DNA of 61,427 bases from Verrucomicrobiota bacterium (GTDB lineage Bacteria > Verrucomicrobiota > Verrucomicrobiia > Limisphaerales > UBA9464): positions 1 through 61,427 of the forward strand of contig VHCX01000014.1 of the NCBI GenBank assembly GCA_016871615.1, written 5' to 3'. The translations under genes and the position numbers were made by a program. The notes beneath the pieces were generated by a model. That model had not been told where the DNA came from. It did no database searches and saw nothing but the letters and a program-made list of their open reading frames with translations. Of the stretch, positions 7,802 through 58,711 are shown piece by piece; the first letter of the stretch is position 1, and the number at the start of each line of letters is the position of its first letter.

Positions 7802-9980
7802 TCACTTTTTGAGGCGGTAGAACTGCTGCGCCGCCTGGGCCGGCAGGCTCGCCGAGTTGCCCGTCACCCCGCCGACCGCCGTCCAGGCGCCGCCCAGGGA
7901 GGGTGAACTCTCGAGCGTGAAGCCGACCGCATCGGCAGGCCACGAGATGACCAGGTTGTCCCCGTTGCGCGTGACGGTGATCGCCACGGGCTTGGCGGGG
8001 AGACCGGCCGAGATCTCTTCGGCGAAAATCTCCAGGAAGGCGATCTTGCAGTTCACGGCCCCGTCGGAATCCGACGCGCTCACCGAGAGGCGTCCGTCCT
8101 CGACCTTCACCTTGGCCTTGCCGTCGCGGAAGCGCTCGGTCGTGGTGCAGGGCACCCCGTTCACCACCAGCACGTCCTCGGCCTTGATGCGGATGGTCTG
8201 GTCGAAGTTGTTCGACTCGCCGCCCACGATGGAGACCTCGTAGGTGCCGTTGGGCACCGCGATCTCCCAGATCCACGGGCCGCCCGGCTTCTGCATGTGG
8301 TTGAAGGTGTCGTAGCGCTCGTCCGGCGCCAGCGCCTTGTCGGTCTGGTTCCGGTTGCGCGCATTGGCCGAGTTGTCCTTGTTCCAGCCGTAGCTGAACC
8401 CGTTGCCCCGGTCGGCGAAGGCCAGCCCGTTGTCCGGCAGATAGCCGGGGAAGCCCTCCAAGGTGGAGTTCTGGAAGTTGATCTTCACCGCGGTCATCCC
8501 GGTCGCCGTCGCGGTGGCCTCGGCGGTGGTGAAACGCCACTCCTGGGTGACCGTCTGGGCGTTGGCCCCGGTGTCGCGGTAGCTCACCTTCACCGTCGCC
8601 GGTGTCTTTCCAGGCAAGGAAGCCGACGGCCGGAAGGAAACCAGGGTGTCGCCGCCGGTCTTGGTGACGGTGGCGGTGACCGGCGTGCCGTTGAGGCTCA
8701 CCTGCACCGAGGCCGGGTCGAGGGCCAGGGTCGTGTCGCGGATGAGCAGGTCGACCGTGGGCTTGATGCTGACATTGACCCCACCCGGGGCCGGCGAGGC
8801 GCTCAGGAGGAAGGGAGGCAGGGCCGGGGCGGTTCCAGCCCGGACGCGGTAGGCCTTGATCGCGCCGCCGGTGTTCGGGTCGTTCACCAGCACCTTGCTC
8901 CCGTCGGGCATCACCGAGAAGAACTCGACCGAACCCGTGCTGGTGCCGTCGTAGTAGAAGAGGCGGATCGGGTAGATGCCCGCCGGCTCCACCACGAACG
9001 AGCAGAGCGTGTCGCTGGCCCCGCGGCCGCCCTCGAAATCGCCCAGCAGCAGCGAGAGGGCCGAGCGGGGGTCGGGTGTGCCGGACAGCAGCCGGAATCC
9101 GTCGTCGCTGTTGACGCCGAGGGTGACCAACCCGGCGGGCAGCTCGAGATAGGTCAGGATCTCGAGGGCGTAGCGGTCGGAAATCCCGTCCGTGCCCGGC
9201 ATGCCCGGGGTGCGGCGGTCGTCCAGGAAGTTGCCGGCCGTCCCGCCCATGTCCTCATAGTTGATGGTCTCCTCCTCGACGAACAGGCCATCGGGCCCGA
9301 AGGCCGAAGGATCGGCCATGTTCTCGTAGGGTTTGCCGGTAGCGCCGTCGATGGCGGTGCCCGCCAGAAGGGCCTCGTAGGGGGCCGAGGACGCGACGAA
9401 GACCGAGTCCATGCGCGCCTTGACGGTGCGCACGGTGAAGCCGCGCCGGGTCTTGTCGATCTGGGCGGCTGGGATGGCCCGGGCCGCGTCGAGGCTGCGA
9501 TAGGCCTCGGCGACAAACGTCCAGGCGAACACCTGCTCGACCGGCGGATTGGCGGTGTCCTTGAAGCGCAGATCCACCTGGTTGGTGGAACCGGAGGGCA
9601 GCAGGCCCGGCGGATCGTAGGTCACCGTCGTGGCGGAGCCCGAGGTGGCCATCTGGGCCGAGACCACCGTGCCGTTGAGCTTCAAGTGCACCGAACCGGC
9701 GGCGACCTTGGTCGCGGAATCCTCGATGGTCGCCGATGATGAAGGCGCCCTGCAGGCTTCCCACCGCCTTGGTCAACTTGAAGAACCCTTCCTCGATGAC
9801 ACCGGCGTTGCCCTCGCCATTGTCCCCGAAGAGCGCGGAGCCCGCAGGCAGGCCCGAGGCGAAGTCGGTGGAGAAGGAACCGGCGCTCAGGCGGGTGATC
9901 GCGCCGAGCAGGGCGGCGGCCTGGACGGCCCGGCGGATCAGCGGGGACGGCGATTGCGGGATGGGCATGATGGATCTCAT
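7802..9980 (-). pseudogene. Secreted lectin-like/Ig-like protein gene, frameshifted and internally deleted
   Basis: The N-terminal part (start ATG 9980, MRSIMPIPQSP, a signal-peptide-like stretch, then FSTDFASGLPAGSALFGD and GSLQGAFIIGD) reads in one frame to about 9735. The rest (IEDSATKVAAG, KLNGTVVSAQ and on to 7802, about 635 codons) reads in another. The N-terminus looks like the opening of an L-type-lectin-like domain, but the downstream frame resumes inside an Ig-like (Big) domain. Most of the lectin domain therefore seems missing, not merely shifted. The 3' part has a PA14/LamG-like region, a malectin-like region and the C-terminal FTLESSPSLGGAWTAV and QQFYRLKK tail common in Verrucomicrobia exoproteins. 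It could be a true pseudogene or a collapsed assembly. Translation could in principle restart at the TTG/GTG codons near 9691. Confidence 0.7.
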
Positions 9981-10263: not shown

Positions 10264-10668
10264 GTGAAGACTTCGACCTCCTTTGCCACGGTGTGGGTGA
10301 CGGTCCCCAACCGTGCCCTCGGGCGGAGCCTCGGCCGGCAGGCGGTCGAGGCGGGTCTGGCCGCCTGCGCCCAGGTGTCCGGTCCGCTGGAATCGATCTA
10401 CCGTTGGCAGGGCGCCGTGGAGTCGTCGCGCGAGTGGTTGCTGGTGCTCAAGACCCGCAACCGATGCCTGAAGGCCCTCGAGGCGCTCGTGGTGGCGCAC
10501 CATCCCTACGACACCCCCCAATTCATCGCCCTGCCCCTGCTGGGAGGCTCGTCGAAGTACCTGGCCTGGCTCGAGGCCTCGACGCGGCCAACCCCAACCC
10601 AACCCACCCGGGCACGGCCGAACCCGCGGCCCGGGGAACCGGCCCGGTCGGCCCGACGAACCCGCTGA
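10264..10668 (+). CDS. cutA: CutA1-type divalent-cation tolerance protein
   Basis: CutA family proteins are small trimeric ferredoxin-like proteins linked to copper tolerance; their molecular role is still unclear. Visible marks are FATVWVTVPN, the GLAACAQVSGPLESIYRWQG segment, WLLVLKTR and HPYDTPQFIALPL. The start is placed at GTG 10264 with AGGA a few bases upstream; GTG 10249 is an alternative. The 134-residue product is longer than the usual ~105-115 because of a Pro/Arg-rich C-terminal tail of about 30 residues after YLAWLEAST. ruvC starts 4 bp downstream, so the two are probably co-transcribed. Confidence 0.88.
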   Translation: MKTSTSFATVWVTVPNRALGRSLGRQAVEAGLAACAQVSGPLESIYRWQGAVESSREWLLVLKTRNRCLKALEALVVAHHPYDTPQFIALPLLGGSSKYLAWLEASTRPTPTQPTRARPNPRPGEPARSARRTR

Positions 10669-38315: not shown

Positions 38316-38392
38316 CGGGACGTAGCTCAGCCCGGTAGAGCACTTGGTTTGGGACCAAGACGTCGCAGGTTCAAATCCTGTCGTCCCGACCA
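38316..38392 (+). tRNA. tRNA-Pro (anticodon UGG)
   Basis: A complete cloverleaf of 77 nt including an encoded CCA. Acceptor arms CGGGACG (38316-38322) and CGTCCCG (38382-38388) pair perfectly. The anticodon arm is CTTGG-TTTGGGA-CCAAG, giving TGG. The T arm is GCAGG-TTCAAAT-CCTGT. The D arm carries GCTCAG. I see no attachment site or integrase next to it. Confidence 0.95.
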
Positions 38393-53436: not shown

Positions 53437-54660
53437 ATGGCCTTGGGACCGGCGGATTCGGACGGCACGATTGACGCAGGAGACCTGGTCGGCACGGTCC
53501 GGAGCCTTGTCGACTGGTTCGACCGGAACGCCCGCGACCTGCCCTGGCGGCGGACACGCGATCCCTACGCCATCTGGGTGTCCGAGGTGATGCTCCAGCA
53601 GACCCAGGTGCAGACGGTGATCGCCTACTGGACCCGCTGGATGGAGCGGCTCCCGGGAGTGCATGCGCTGGCCGCCGCCCCGACCGACGAGGTGCTGAAA
53701 TTGTGGGAGGGGCTCGGATACTATTCGAGGGCCCGAAACCTCCAGGACGCCGCCCGTCGCATGGTCACCGAGCTGGGCGGGGTCTTCCCGAGCGAGGTGT
53801 CCGCACTGCGGGCCCTGCCCGGCATCGGGCCCTACACCGCCGGAGCCATCGCCTCGATCGCATTCGACCTGCCCGAGCCCCTGCTCGACGGCAACGTCAT
53901 GCGGGTGCTCACCCGGCTTTTCGCCATCGAGGGCGACCCGAAGTCGAGGATCGTGAACCGCCACCTGTGGGACCTGGGCGGCCGCCTGGTCAGGACCGCC
54001 CACCGGAGCGATGGACTGGGCCAGGCCCGGTGTTCGCGCCTGAACCAGGCCCTCATGGAACTCGGGGCGACGGTGTGCACCCCGGGGAAGAACCCGGACT
54101 GCGCGGCCTGCCCGGTCTCGTCGGGATGCCGGGCCCGCCGCCTCGGGGAACCCGGGCGCTTTCCCCAGCTGCCGCCGAGGGTGCCCCCCACGCCGAGATA
54201 TTTCGCGACGGGCGTCCTGGAGCACGGGGGGCGCTTCCTGCTGAGGCTCCGCGAGGAGCCCGGCGTGAACCGCGGGTTCTGGGAGTTCCCCAGCTGGGAA
54301 ACCGGCGCCGACGAGGCGCCCGGGCCGGTGCTCAGCCGCCATCTGGGCGTCCAACCGGGAGCCTGGGAGGCGCTACCCGACCTGCGCCACGCCATCACGC
54401 GCTACCGGATCACCCAGCGGGTGCTGCTGGCCCGACTGGACCACCCCCCCGGAGGAGTGACCGACGGGTCGACCGGCACCTGGCTATGGGCCGGGCCGGC
54501 CGAACTCGAGGCGCTACCCCTGACCTCGGCGCACCGGAAGCTTGCCGGCCGGTTGCCCCGGGGCGCGACAGCCCGGGAGGCCGGGCCTCCCGATCGGGCC
54601 GGGCTGAAAGCCCGCAATTGTCAGGCGGGGCGGGCGGGGCCACTCTCCGCACACACGTGA
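53437..54660 (+). CDS. mutY: A/G-specific adenine glycosylase MutY
   Basis: Removes adenine mispaired with 8-oxoguanine. ATG 53437 ([10 protein letters not shown]) is chosen; conserved sequence begins about 25 residues later ([39 protein letters not shown]). The helix-hairpin-helix is [18 protein letters not shown], and the catalytic Asp is in [12 protein letters not shown]. The Fe-S cysteines are present ([18 protein letters not shown]), but the first spacing is X7, not X6. The NUDIX-like C-terminal domain ends near [10 protein letters not shown]. About 30 further residues are read through palindromic DNA. Its stop overlaps the RF3 fragment start. Confidence 0.94.
54574..54614. repeat. Two adjacent hairpins inside the mutY 3' end
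   Basis: CGGGAGGC and GCCTCCCG (54574-54592) form an 8-bp stem; CGGGCT-GAA-AGCCCG (54600-54614) forms a 6-bp stem. They look like extragenic palindrome units that the MutY frame happens to traverse. Confidence 0.55.
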
Positions 54661-55424
54661 ACGACGGTCGTCTCATCACCCCGGAACATCTGCAGTTCTC
54701 GGGCTTCATCTTCAAGATCCAGGCCAACATGGATCCGAAGCACCGCGACCGGATCGCCTTCGTACGCATCGTGAGCGGCAGGTTCGAGCGCGACATGACC
54801 GTGTTCCACGTCCAGTCGGGCCGGAAGGTCCGCCTGAGTTCCTCGCACAAGCTCTTCGGCAACGAGCGGGAGACCGTGGACGAGGCCTATCCCGGGGACA
54901 TCATCGGGCTGGTGGGCCACGACGGCTTCGGCATCGGCGACACCCTCAGCACCGACCCGGCGATCCGGTTCGACGAGATCCCGCGCTTCACGCCCGAGGT
55001 CTTCGAATACTTCCACAACCCGAACACGGCGAAGTTCAAGCAGTTCCGCCAGGGACTCGACCAGTTGCTGCTCGAGGGCGTGGCGCAGGCCTTCCACCTC
55101 AAGGACACGGCCAGCCGGGTGCCCCTTCTGGCGGCGGTCGGCCCGCTGCAGTTCGAGGTGCTGCAATACCGCCTGGAGACCGAGTACAACGCCGAGACCC
55201 GCCGCGAGAGCGCGCCCTTCACCGCCGTGCGATGGCTGCCGGCCGGGACCGCGCCGGAGTCGCTGGACGCCATCGCGCTGCCCACCGGCGCCCGATTCGC
55301 CTTCGACCTGGACTCGAACCCGGTGATCCTCTTCCCCAGCGAGTGGTCGCTCGGCTACTTCGCCCAGAACCACCCCTCCCTGCCGCTGACCTCGCTGGCG
55401 CCGCCGCGCCGCCACGACCGATGA
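54657..55424 (+). CDS. Release factor 3 C-terminal half (domains II-III), GTPase domain absent
   Basis: The 255-aa product matches peptide chain release factor 3 from its domain II onward: [50 protein letters not shown] and [20 protein letters not shown]. Intact RF3 is about 530 aa and starts with a ~280-residue GTPase domain carrying the G1-G5 motifs. None of that is present upstream, where mutY ends. The GTG at 54657 overlaps the mutY stop (GTGA), and homology starts within ten codons, right at the domain boundary. Without the G domain it cannot work as RF3. It may be a decayed prfC, a new stand-alone protein or an assembly join. Confidence 0.8.
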
Positions 55425-55468: not shown

Positions 55469-56692
55469 ATGACCTCCGACATCGACTTCGCCTCGCCGTC
55501 CATGCCCGACACCACCGGCCACTTCGGGCCGTTCGGCGGGCGCTATGTGCCCGAGACCCTCGTCCACCCGCTTCAGCAGCTCGAGGACGAGTACTGGCGG
55601 GCGCAGCAGGACCCGGAGTTCCAGCGCGAGCTGGACTACTACCTGCGCGAGTTCGTCGGCCGGCCCACCCCGCTGTACTTCGCCGAGCGCCTGACCCGCT
55701 CGCTCGGCGGGGCGCGCATCTACCTCAAGCGCGAGGACCTGCTGCACACCGGCGCCCACAAGATCAACAACGCCATGGGCCAGGTGCTGCTGGCACGGCG
55801 GATGGGCAAGACCCGCATCATCGCCGAGACCGGTGCCGGCCAGCACGGCGTCGCCACGGCCACGGTGTCGGCCATGTTCGGCATGAAGTGCGTGATCTAC
55901 ATGGGCGCGGTCGACTGCAAGCGGCAGGAACTCAACGTCTACCGCATGAAGATGCTCGGGGCCGAGGTGGTGCCCGTGAAGGCCGGCCAGCAGACCCTCA
56001 AGGAGGCGGTGAACGAGGCCATGCGCGACTGGGTCACCAACGTGCGCTCGACCCACTACATCCTCGGCACGGCCTACGGGGCCCACCCCTACCCCGTCAT
56101 GGTGCGCAACTTCCACCGCGTGATCGGCGACGAGGCGCGGGCCCAGATCCTCGAGCGCGAGAAGCGCCTCCCGGACCTGCTCATCGCCTGCGTGGGCGGC
56201 GGCTCGAACGCCATCGGGCTGTTCTATCCGTTCCTCAACGACCCGTCGGTCAAGATGCTGGGCGTGGAGGCCGGCGGCGAGGGCATCGCGCCGGAGAAGC
56301 ACGCCGCCCGCTTCCAAGGAGGCTCGCTGGGCGTGCTCCAAGGCACCCGCAGCTACATCCTCCAGGACGAGTTCGGGCAGATCCAGCTCACCCACAGCGT
56401 CAGCGCCGGCCTCGACTATGCGGCGGTCGGCCCGGAACACGCCTGGCTCAAGGACCGCAACCGCGTGGAGTACGGCTACGCGACCGACACCGAGGCCCTG
56501 GACGCCTTCCTGCGGCTGGCCAAGCTCGAGGGCATCATCCCGGCCTTGGAAAGCGCGCATGCGGTCGCCGGGGCCATCCAGCGGGCGCCGACCCTGGGCA
56601 AGGACCAGGTGATCGTGGTCAACCTGTCGGGCCGGGGCGACAAGGACGTGATGCAGGCCGCCCAGAAGCTGGGCATCCGATTGCCGGAGTGA
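55469..56692 (+). CDS. trpB: Tryptophan synthase beta chain
   Basis: Condenses indole and serine to tryptophan with PLP. The 407-aa product starts at ATG 55469; the family N-terminus [20 protein letters not shown] begins at about residue 17. The PLP lysine is in [13 protein letters not shown], the phosphate loop is [12 protein letters not shown], and the [20 protein letters not shown] segment is standard TrpB1. trpA is not adjacent within the window. A 44-bp gap follows the RF3 fragment. Confidence 0.97.
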
Positions 56693-56928: not shown

Positions 56929-58044
56929 CTATTCGGGCGACTCTTTGTCGCGCCGGCCCAACAGGGCCTGGGGATCGGGCTTGGGAATGATCGCCGTGCG
57001 CTCGCGGAGCATCTGGGCCCGGAACAGGTCGCGTTCGTCGGAGCCGAGCTTCTCGCGCAGCGGGTGGGCCAGTTGCAGATGGGCCGGCTGGCTTCGGAGG
57101 AACAGTTCGTCGGTCAGCGACTTCGGCGTGGGGCCGAAGACACCCAGGTCGACGCCAAGCCTCAGGAAACTGACGAGGTTCATCGCCTCCTTGGAGGAGA
57201 TGCTCCAGCTGTTGGAGAGCACTCCGTAGGCGCGGCCGATGTGGTTGAGGAGCACAGCCGGCTTCTTCTCCATCTGGGAGAGGCGGGCATTCTCCTCGTG
57301 CTCGATGATCTGCAGGAGCACCTTGTTGATCCGCTCGACGATCTCGCCCTCGGGCTCGCCAAGGGTCATCTGGTTGGACACCTGGAAGACGTTGCCCAGG
57401 GCCTCGGTGCCCTCGCCGTAGAGGCCGCGCACGGCCAGGCCCAGCTTGTTGACGGCCTGGATGATCTGGTTGATCTGCTCGGCCAGCACCAGGCCCGGCA
57501 GATGGAGCATGGCGCTGACGCGGATGCCCGTGCCGAGGTTGGTCGGGCAGGCCGTCAGGAAGCCGTAGCGCTCGGCGAAGGCGAACTCCACCCGCTCCTG
57601 CAGGGCGGAGTCGACGGCGTCGATCGCCGTCCAGGCCTGCCGGAGCTGGAGGCCCGGCCGGAGGGCCTGCATGCGCAGGTGATCCTCCTCGTTGACCATC
57701 ACGCAGAGATCCTCCTGGCGGTTGAGCACGATGCCGCTGCCAGCGTTCTTGGCGGCGTGCTCCCGGCTGATGAGGTGCCGCTCCACCAGGAGCTGCTTGT
57801 CGAGTGCCGGCAGGCGGTCCATCGACTCGTAAAAGATGTCGCCGCCGAGCTGCGGGAGCGACTTGACGGCCGGCATGAGGGTCTCGAAGGCCCGGAGGCG
57901 GTCGGCCTTCTTGGAATGGCTCGGGAACGGTACGTTGGTGAGGTTGCGCGCCAGCCGCACCCGGCTCGAGAGCACGATGCGGTCGTTGGGCCCGCCGCGG
58001 AGGCAGGCCTCGGAGGCGGGGATGAGGAATTCAAGGATGCTCAC
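56929..58044 (-). CDS. mcsB: Protein arginine kinase McsB-like (phosphagen kinase family)
   Basis: McsB phosphorylates arginines on proteins, marking them for ClpCP in Gram-positive bacteria. The 371-aa product starts at GTG 58044. It has RIVLSSRVRLARNLTNVPFP near the N-terminus, the nucleotide-binding VMVNEEDHLRMQ, the active-site CPTNLGTGIRVSAMLHLPGL and RGLYGEGTEALGNVFQVSNQ. It pairs with the McsA-like gene 58 bp upstream, so the same two-component arrangement is kept in this outer-membrane-bearing lineage. clpC and ctsR are not in the window. Confidence 0.93.
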   Translation of the reverse strand: MSILEFLIPASEACLRGGPNDRIVLSSRVRLARNLTNVPFPSHSKKADRLRAFETLMPAVKSLPQLGGDIFYESMDRLPALDKQLLVERHLISREHAAKNAGSGIVLNRQEDLCVMVNEEDHLRMQALRPGLQLRQAWTAIDAVDSALQERVEFAFAERYGFLTACPTNLGTGIRVSAMLHLPGLVLAEQINQIIQAVNKLGLAVRGLYGEGTEALGNVFQVSNQMTLGEPEGEIVERINKVLLQIIEHEENARLSQMEKKPAVLLNHIGRAYGVLSNSWSISSKEAMNLVSFLRLGVDLGVFGPTPKSLTDELFLRSQPAHLQLAHPLREKLGSDERDLFRAQMLRERTAIIPKPDPQALLGRRDKESPE

Positions 58045-58102: not shown

Positions 58103-58597
58103 CTATTCGGAGGCCTTGAAGGCCTTAATCTCGTCGCGAAGGCGCGCCGCGGTCTCGAAATCCTCCTGGGCGACAGCCTTCTGCAGGTCGCGGTTGAGGC
58201 GCTGGAGGCGCTGGACCCCGGAGGCGGCGCGCTTGACGGACACGGGCACCTTGCCCCGGTGTCGGGTGTCCTTGTGCATCGTCTTGAGCACCGAATCGAG
58301 ACCCTCGGAGAAGATGTCGTAGCAGCGGGCGCACCCGAGCCGGCCGCTTTTCTTGAAGTCGGCCTGCGTGTACCCGCACTGGTCGCAGGAGAGGGCCCCC
58401 ACGGCCTCGGAGGCCTCCTCCATCTTCTGGGCCGCGCCCAGGCCGAGCAGATGGTCGGCGATGGCGAAGGCGGCGGGGTCGTTGTAGTTCTTCTCCTTCG
58501 CGCAGACGGCGCAGGCGTCGACCTTCTTGACCTTGTTGTCGGCGATCTCGGTCACGTGGACCGTCGCCTCCTTCGACTTGCAGAACTGGCACACCAT
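58103..58597 (-). CDS. McsA-like zinc-finger protein with UVR motif
   Basis: The 164-aa product starts at ATG 58597 (MVCQFCKSKEATVHVTEIAD). Four CxxC pairs are visible (CQFC, CAVC, CDQC, CARC), arranged as two zinc sites. The C-terminal ~40 residues form a UvrB/UvrC coiled motif (LQKAVAQEDFETAARLRDEI). This matches McsA, the activator of McsB. The order here is mcsA-like then mcsB. Confidence 0.9.
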   Translation of the reverse strand: MVCQFCKSKEATVHVTEIADNKVKKVDACAVCAKEKNYNDPAAFAIADHLLGLGAAQKMEEASEAVGALSCDQCGYTQADFKKSGRLGCARCYDIFSEGLDSVLKTMHKDTRHRGKVPVSVKRAASGVQRLQRLNRDLQKAVAQEDFETAARLRDEIKAFKASE

Positions 58598-58711
58598 GGT
58601 TGTCGGGCAGATATCGACGCAGGACGGCCCGGAGTCAAGGTGAGGGACAGGACGGGACACCGTCGACCGATCGTCCGCCCCCGCCCCGGCGGACCCTTGG
58701 CTGGCCGGCCG

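Follow-up and report, generated by a model that had tools for sequence, protein, structure and literature searches.

Release factor 3 (RF3) resembles EF-G in that the GTP state passes from the G domain to the ribosome-binding domains within one chain. According to the accessible part of one account, RF3 drives subunit rotation and its G domain touches the sarcin-ricin loop (PMC6076264). Two surveys of translational GTPases describe the loss of RF3, and the portions of them that were available describe no split form (PMC1780047, PMC4342817). Gene fission is described for the mitochondrial cox2 of scoliid wasps, where the two genes are separated by inserted sequence and their products apparently form a heterodimer (available part of PMC5374615). 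Here we analyzed a stretch of 61,427 nucleotides from a Verrucomicrobiota bacterium (contig VHCX01000014.1 of assembly GCA_016871615.1; Limisphaerales, UBA9464), referred to as the window, which carries the C-terminal half of prfC, the RF3 gene. The missing half was found on another contig of the same genome. RF3 is thus encoded by two complete and complementary genes, both having a start and a stop of their own, which are unlinked, kept together and under selection. We interpret them as a stable fission of prfC, with a probability of roughly 0.83, in which the two polypeptides would assemble without a covalent bond.

RF3 Is Encoded by Two Separate Genes

The gene in the window, here called the C half, opens with a GTG at 54657 and runs for 255 codons to a TGA at 55422-55424. 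Its GTG shares the letters GTGA with the mutY stop (TGA, 54658-54660), just as the initial annotation of this DNA had described. The Pfam matches of its product were RF3_C (PF16658, E 5.5e-37) and EF-G_D2 (PF22042, E 2.7e-25), i.e., the RF3-specific C-terminal domain and the domain II that an RF3 must have, and no GTP-binding domain was found in the Pfam search of this protein, which bears out the annotated free-standing domains II and III. The NCBIfam prfC model (TIGR00503) matched it only from position 283 to 522 of 527 (279-522 when the whole genome was searched). The frame remains open further upstream, beneath mutY (649 amino acids from stop to stop), and the first in-frame stop lies 407 codons upstream of the matched stretch, compared with 18-151 codons in 14 of the 15 C halves of the same genus. 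However, GTG AAC GA(C/A) is found at the equivalent position in all 15 C-half genes read in this genus, and therefore the annotated beginning at 54657 is supported as a start codon, if not as the edge of the open frame. An own start (ATG, GTG or TTG) and an upstream in-frame stop were seen in all C halves read (33/33).

When the entire genome was searched with the prfC model, two RF3 pieces emerged, namely the C half and, at G000:C9:9675-10511, a lone G domain that covers model positions 5-283. Seven weaker rows were interpreted as other GTPases; five of these lie in open frames 629-899 amino acids long. The lone G domain belongs to a gene of 284 codons, with a GTG at 9666 and a stop ending at 10520, whose product has a GTP-binding domain of the EF-Tu/EF-G kind (PF00009, E 2.6e-52). 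The G-domain motifs are intact and unchanged in the alignment of G halves. The search for a lone RF3 G domain elsewhere in the genome, which had been proposed with the initial annotation, was thus positive, and the loss of the G domain presumed there did not hold: the domain is not lost, only the covalent bond between the RF3 parts is gone. The G half scored 398.1 bits and the C half 227 bits against a curated prfC cut-off of 466.95, and this genome encodes no single polypeptide above it. Since neither half exceeds the cut-off, the RF3 of this genome is classified as a two-gene variant of RF3.

The matches of the two halves to Escherichia coli RF3 (2H5E) adjoin, the G half ending at residue 284 and the C half beginning at 285. 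G halves stop 16-21 residues past the block NNFGVQLLLD in 35 of 37 loci, the other two running off their contigs, while C halves begin a few residues ahead of FSGF, near domain II. In all G and C halves read, it is this one linker, joining the G domain to domain II, that is cut. Both parts are complete, the place of the cut is one, and the fused form occurs in relatives, which are the marks of a gene fission. The length of the stretch from the block to domain II was read in 23 of 24 fused loci. It measures 25 residues in 13 of the 15 outgroup proteins read (28 in G043, 57 in G037) and 31-37 residues in all eight fused proteins of the family, a longer linker such as a scar of re-fusion or an already loosened linker would give.

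Table 1. Locations of the two RF3 genes and of the genes flanking the C half (positions refer to the window unless a contig is given).
Feature	Location	Strand	Basis or remark
C half of split RF3 (domains II and III, 255 amino acids)	54657..55424	+	Pfam, prfC model, conserved GTG, dN/dS
G half of RF3 (284 amino acids)	G000:C9:9666-10520	+	outside the window; lone RF3 G-domain gene on another contig of the same genome
mutY, upstream neighbor of C half	53461..54660	+	NCBIfam mutY, 298.6 bits (cut-off 286.5); coordinates are those of the homologous stretch, not of a called gene start
trpB, downstream neighbor of C half	55469..56692	+	NCBIfam trpB, 626.4 bits (cut-off 392.45)

Distribution of the Split and the Fused Gene

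We surveyed 50 genomes of the family, 28 of which are of good quality (at least 90% complete, at most 5% contaminated). Both halves were found in 31 of the 50 and a fused gene in eight (G019, G026; G022, G028, G034; G029, G059, G063), the one in G059 being cut by a contig end inside the G domain. Neither form was found in three genomes (G012, G032, G062), and contig ends divide the G half of G003 and that of G069 into two pieces. Among the good-quality genomes, 27 of 28 contain both halves or the fused gene. The split arrangement extends over the genus of the window and six more genera (g1, g3, g4, g6, g7, g8 and g9 in all), and the fused one occurs in g2, g5 and g6. Genus g6 thus contains both states, split in G023, G035, G060 and G061 and fused in G029, G059 and G063. 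Both halves share a contig in four genomes, at distances of 173 kb (G004), 9 kb (G035), 5 kb (G023) and 4 kb (G061).

In other families of the order (n = 23), 15 genomes have a single gene above the cut-off, one (G037) has a single gene at a contig end, and seven are without a match. G037 had been considered as a further split RF3 and was rejected, as its gene is fused and cut by the contig end. In a sample of 240 genomes of the phylum, 75 exceed the prfC cut-off, each with one open frame, whereas the genome of the window is split; ten more match only in frames of 698-798 amino acids, which were taken as EF-G, and the remaining genomes of the sample had no prfC match at E 1e-62. Among the best 80 loci in named genomes, 75 are full length, four begin at a contig end and one (L132, Verrucomicrobia bacterium isolate RE-27jun17-205) is split, being identical to the stretch in G002 over the 5570 bases compared. 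For L174, also among these 80, only the C part is visible.

Selection on Both Halves and Structure Models

Ratios of nonsynonymous to synonymous substitution rates (dN/dS) were determined by the Nei-Gojobori method for 16 pairs, 12 split and four fused; the split pair G004/G008 was saturated, leaving 11. In these, dN/dS ranged from 0.010 to 0.122 for G halves and from 0.019 to 0.097 for C halves, while the four fused pairs gave 0.020-0.050 (G part) and 0.014-0.065 (C part). The pair G030/G068 gave the two highest values among the split pairs, and these exceed the fused range. These values indicate strong purifying selection on both halves, close to that on fused genes, and the dN/dS comparison suggested with the initial annotation agrees with its view of the C half as an intact gene that is not in random decay.

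AlphaFold2 models of the single halves, from structure alignments of 45 C-half and 28 G-half rows (drawn from 55 C stretches, 56 G stretches and a further 20 C stretches from other loci), reached a predicted local distance difference test score (pLDDT) of 84.5 for the C half and 78.2 for the G half. RF3 chains were the best solved-structure matches of both models.

A Proposed Two-Piece RF3 and Its Alternatives

Taken together, both halves are well preserved and probably work together as a two-piece switch. According to this proposal, prfC would have been cut within the linker that connects the G domain to domain II, so that RF3-G (284 amino acids) would perform GTP binding and hydrolysis and RF3-C (255 amino acids) would supply domains II and III. 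The halves would bind each other by the contacts that the G domain and domains II-III ordinarily make, and the resulting non-covalent heterodimer would do the usual work of RF3, the GTP-dependent removal of RF1 and RF2 from the ribosome once the peptide has been released. One prfB (RF2) match above the cut-off was present in the genome, together with a second, weaker class-I factor, which was taken as RF1. The account of RF3 action in the accessible part of PMC6076264 does not call for the linker itself; domains II-III must, however, be coupled to the G domain across the interface of the two.

Several observations speak against such a two-piece factor. The G and C genes are unlinked, so that their supply would have to be balanced without an operon. 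The G half is alone in five of the 50 family genomes (G001, G006, G018, G067, G071) and the C half in three (G016, G070, G072), and one of the latter, G016, rated 90% complete, is the sole exception among the good-quality genomes. Moreover, the match of the C-half model to RF3 chains has a root-mean-square deviation near 9 Å over the whole chain, and because of this the pose of domain II against domain III in the model is unsure. Unlinked genes and the eight genomes with a single half could also mean that the two halves have gone separate ways, the C half becoming a lone ribosome-binding protein and the G half a separate small GTPase. We consider this unlikely, since both halves or the fused gene are kept in 27 of 28 good-quality genomes, the RF3 sequence is kept in both halves with dN/dS like that of fused genes, and only one alignment column, in the G half, parts split from fused nearly cleanly and fits the split. 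The new use of a lone ribosome-binding part, which the initial annotation had considered, need not be invoked, as the partner is encoded elsewhere and retained alongside; it stays a minor possibility.

A cut would also be harmless if a split intein or RNA trans-splicing linked the products after transcription. This is very improbable: the G halves end 16-21 residues past the last conserved block and the C halves begin near domain II, intein halves are larger than the room left there, and none were found at the cut. No intein family was among the Pfam and NCBIfam matches of the C half or the Pfam matches of the G half, a search in which no intein model was run by name, and the Rfam search of the window and the G-half locus at the gathering threshold gave only a tRNA. 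Still less credible is that both pieces are remnants of a disappearing prfC. RF3 has been lost in many bacterial lineages, as the available portions of PMC1780047 and PMC4342817 describe, and an extra, partial C-half copy exists in G014; however, dN/dS is far under 1 for both halves, the listed halves are free of internal stops and kept in seven genera, and neither relaxed selection nor broken frames were seen in closer relatives. The recent deletion scar initially proposed finds no support either, given the same split across the genus and six more genera and the G domain encoded elsewhere. Least probable of all, to the point of being negligible, is an artefact of assembly or binning. The genome of the window is in 183 contigs and most relatives are fragmented as well, yet the same split recurs in dozens of separate assemblies with constant neighbors within the genus, and a public record (CANHYD010000036.1) has the C half alone. 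In addition, four genomes carry both halves on a single contig, at distances of 4-173 kb, and therefore a binning error or a collapsed join, the latter raised by the initial annotation, is disfavored.

Gene Order and History of the Split

Of the 15 C-half loci in genus g1, 14 have mutY upstream, the exception being G004, where none was seen within 3.5 kb; 14 likewise have trpB downstream, and in the remaining one, G005, the contig ends. In G014, mutY is 2 kb from the C half. Between the two, some 1.5 kb ahead of the intact C half, we observed the partial copy (G014:C352:3330-3503, in L122), which comprises the first 58 residues at 83% identity. Downstream of the g1 G half, 15 of 17 loci show a convergent hydroxyisobutyrate-dehydrogenase-like gene, and the remaining two run off their contigs. 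In g6, a divergent G6PD gene stands just upstream of the split G half (4/4) and of the fused gene in G029; in the fused G063 the G6PD match is about 4 kb away.

A cross-genus screen of neighbors gave few usable links; many of the links were antisense frames or members of repeated families. G033 (g9) has its G half flanked by gatB and purL, and its C half is followed by an ABC-F ATPase gene. Such an ABC-F gene is also found behind the fused prfC of 7 of the 16 outgroup genomes (with flanks of unequal length), and gatB is upstream of the fused prfC in both g2 genomes. purL follows the G half in two g9 genomes (G033 and G071; L077 and L230) and directly precedes the C half in two g7 genomes (G030 and G069; L124 and L227); in the other 38 of the 42 purL-bearing family genomes it is on a contig other than either half. 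The purL positions in g9 and g7 are a hint of the gene order before the halves dispersed. In a simple reading, the ancestral order would have been gatB, G half, purL, C half, ABC-F, produced by one insertional fission and dispersed later.

The fewest changes between the split and fused states number two on the RF3 G-domain tree, four on the C-half tree, five on the EF-G tree and four on the ribosomal-operon tree (14 proteins; 32 of 38 rows kept, leaving out the poorly covered G065 and five near-duplicates). With the ribosomal set, the approximately unbiased (AU) test rejected the split genomes as one clade (p 9.8e-5) as well as split genomes plus fused g6 as one clade (p 5.4e-82). The RF3 G-domain data oppose the species grouping g2+g8+g9+g6 (p 0.014) and do not oppose g4+g5 (p 0.08); with the C-half data, neither of the two species groupings tried was rejected (p 0.21, 0.37). 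Within g6, the split and the fused states each form their own clade on the ribosomal tree, and these are sisters. One G-domain position is alanine in 35/35 split and 3/3 fused g6 sequences, R or Q in g2 and g5, and R, S or K in the outgroup, and this shared residue favors a re-fusion in g6. We give one fission plus re-fusion an even chance; several fissions, or gene transfer, may be other histories of the split. The bolder idea of a two-subunit translational GTPase with an exchangeable nucleotide-carrying G subunit, which would make RF3 a two-component switch, its gene split by purL in the linker and re-fused more than once, is speculative and rather doubtful.

Elsewhere in the window, a gene for a McsB-like protein arginine kinase (56932-58044) stands beside a McsA-like gene (58106-58660), both on the minus strand and with scores that are high but under the curated cut-offs. 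A tRNA gene at 38316-38389 (plus strand) is the sole Rfam match at the gathering threshold in the window.

Comparison With Known Systems

No report of a split RF3 was found in the open PubMed Central literature, subscription journals and preprints being outside the scope of the search. A Vibrio paper (PMC7018647) contains the phrase "truncated prfC". That the split is stable and under selection suggests a covalent link to be dispensable in RF3, and it offers a natural system for how the nucleotide signal crosses an interface and whether the two parts can exchange, with the split and fused forms within g6 as a natural comparison. A cut-off set for the whole protein would score such genomes as being without RF3.

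Compared with bacterial RF3 (prfC, TIGR00503; E. coli 2H5E), all domains are present across the two products, with intact G motifs and PF16658, but in two genes and polypeptides, each half below the prfC cut-off. The naturally split Doa10 (PMC3464245) and archaeal fusion and fission families (PMC11237513) are, as far as the accessible parts of these papers describe, likewise cases of fission with the parts kept, the former in a eukaryotic membrane protein and the latter in archaeal families at large. The cox2 of scoliid wasps, as presented in the available part of PMC5374615, is a subunit of a mitochondrial membrane enzyme and its two genes stay 3 kb apart, unlike those of RF3; as with prfC, one gene has become two complementary genes, and the sequence inserted between them would resemble purL between the RF3 halves.
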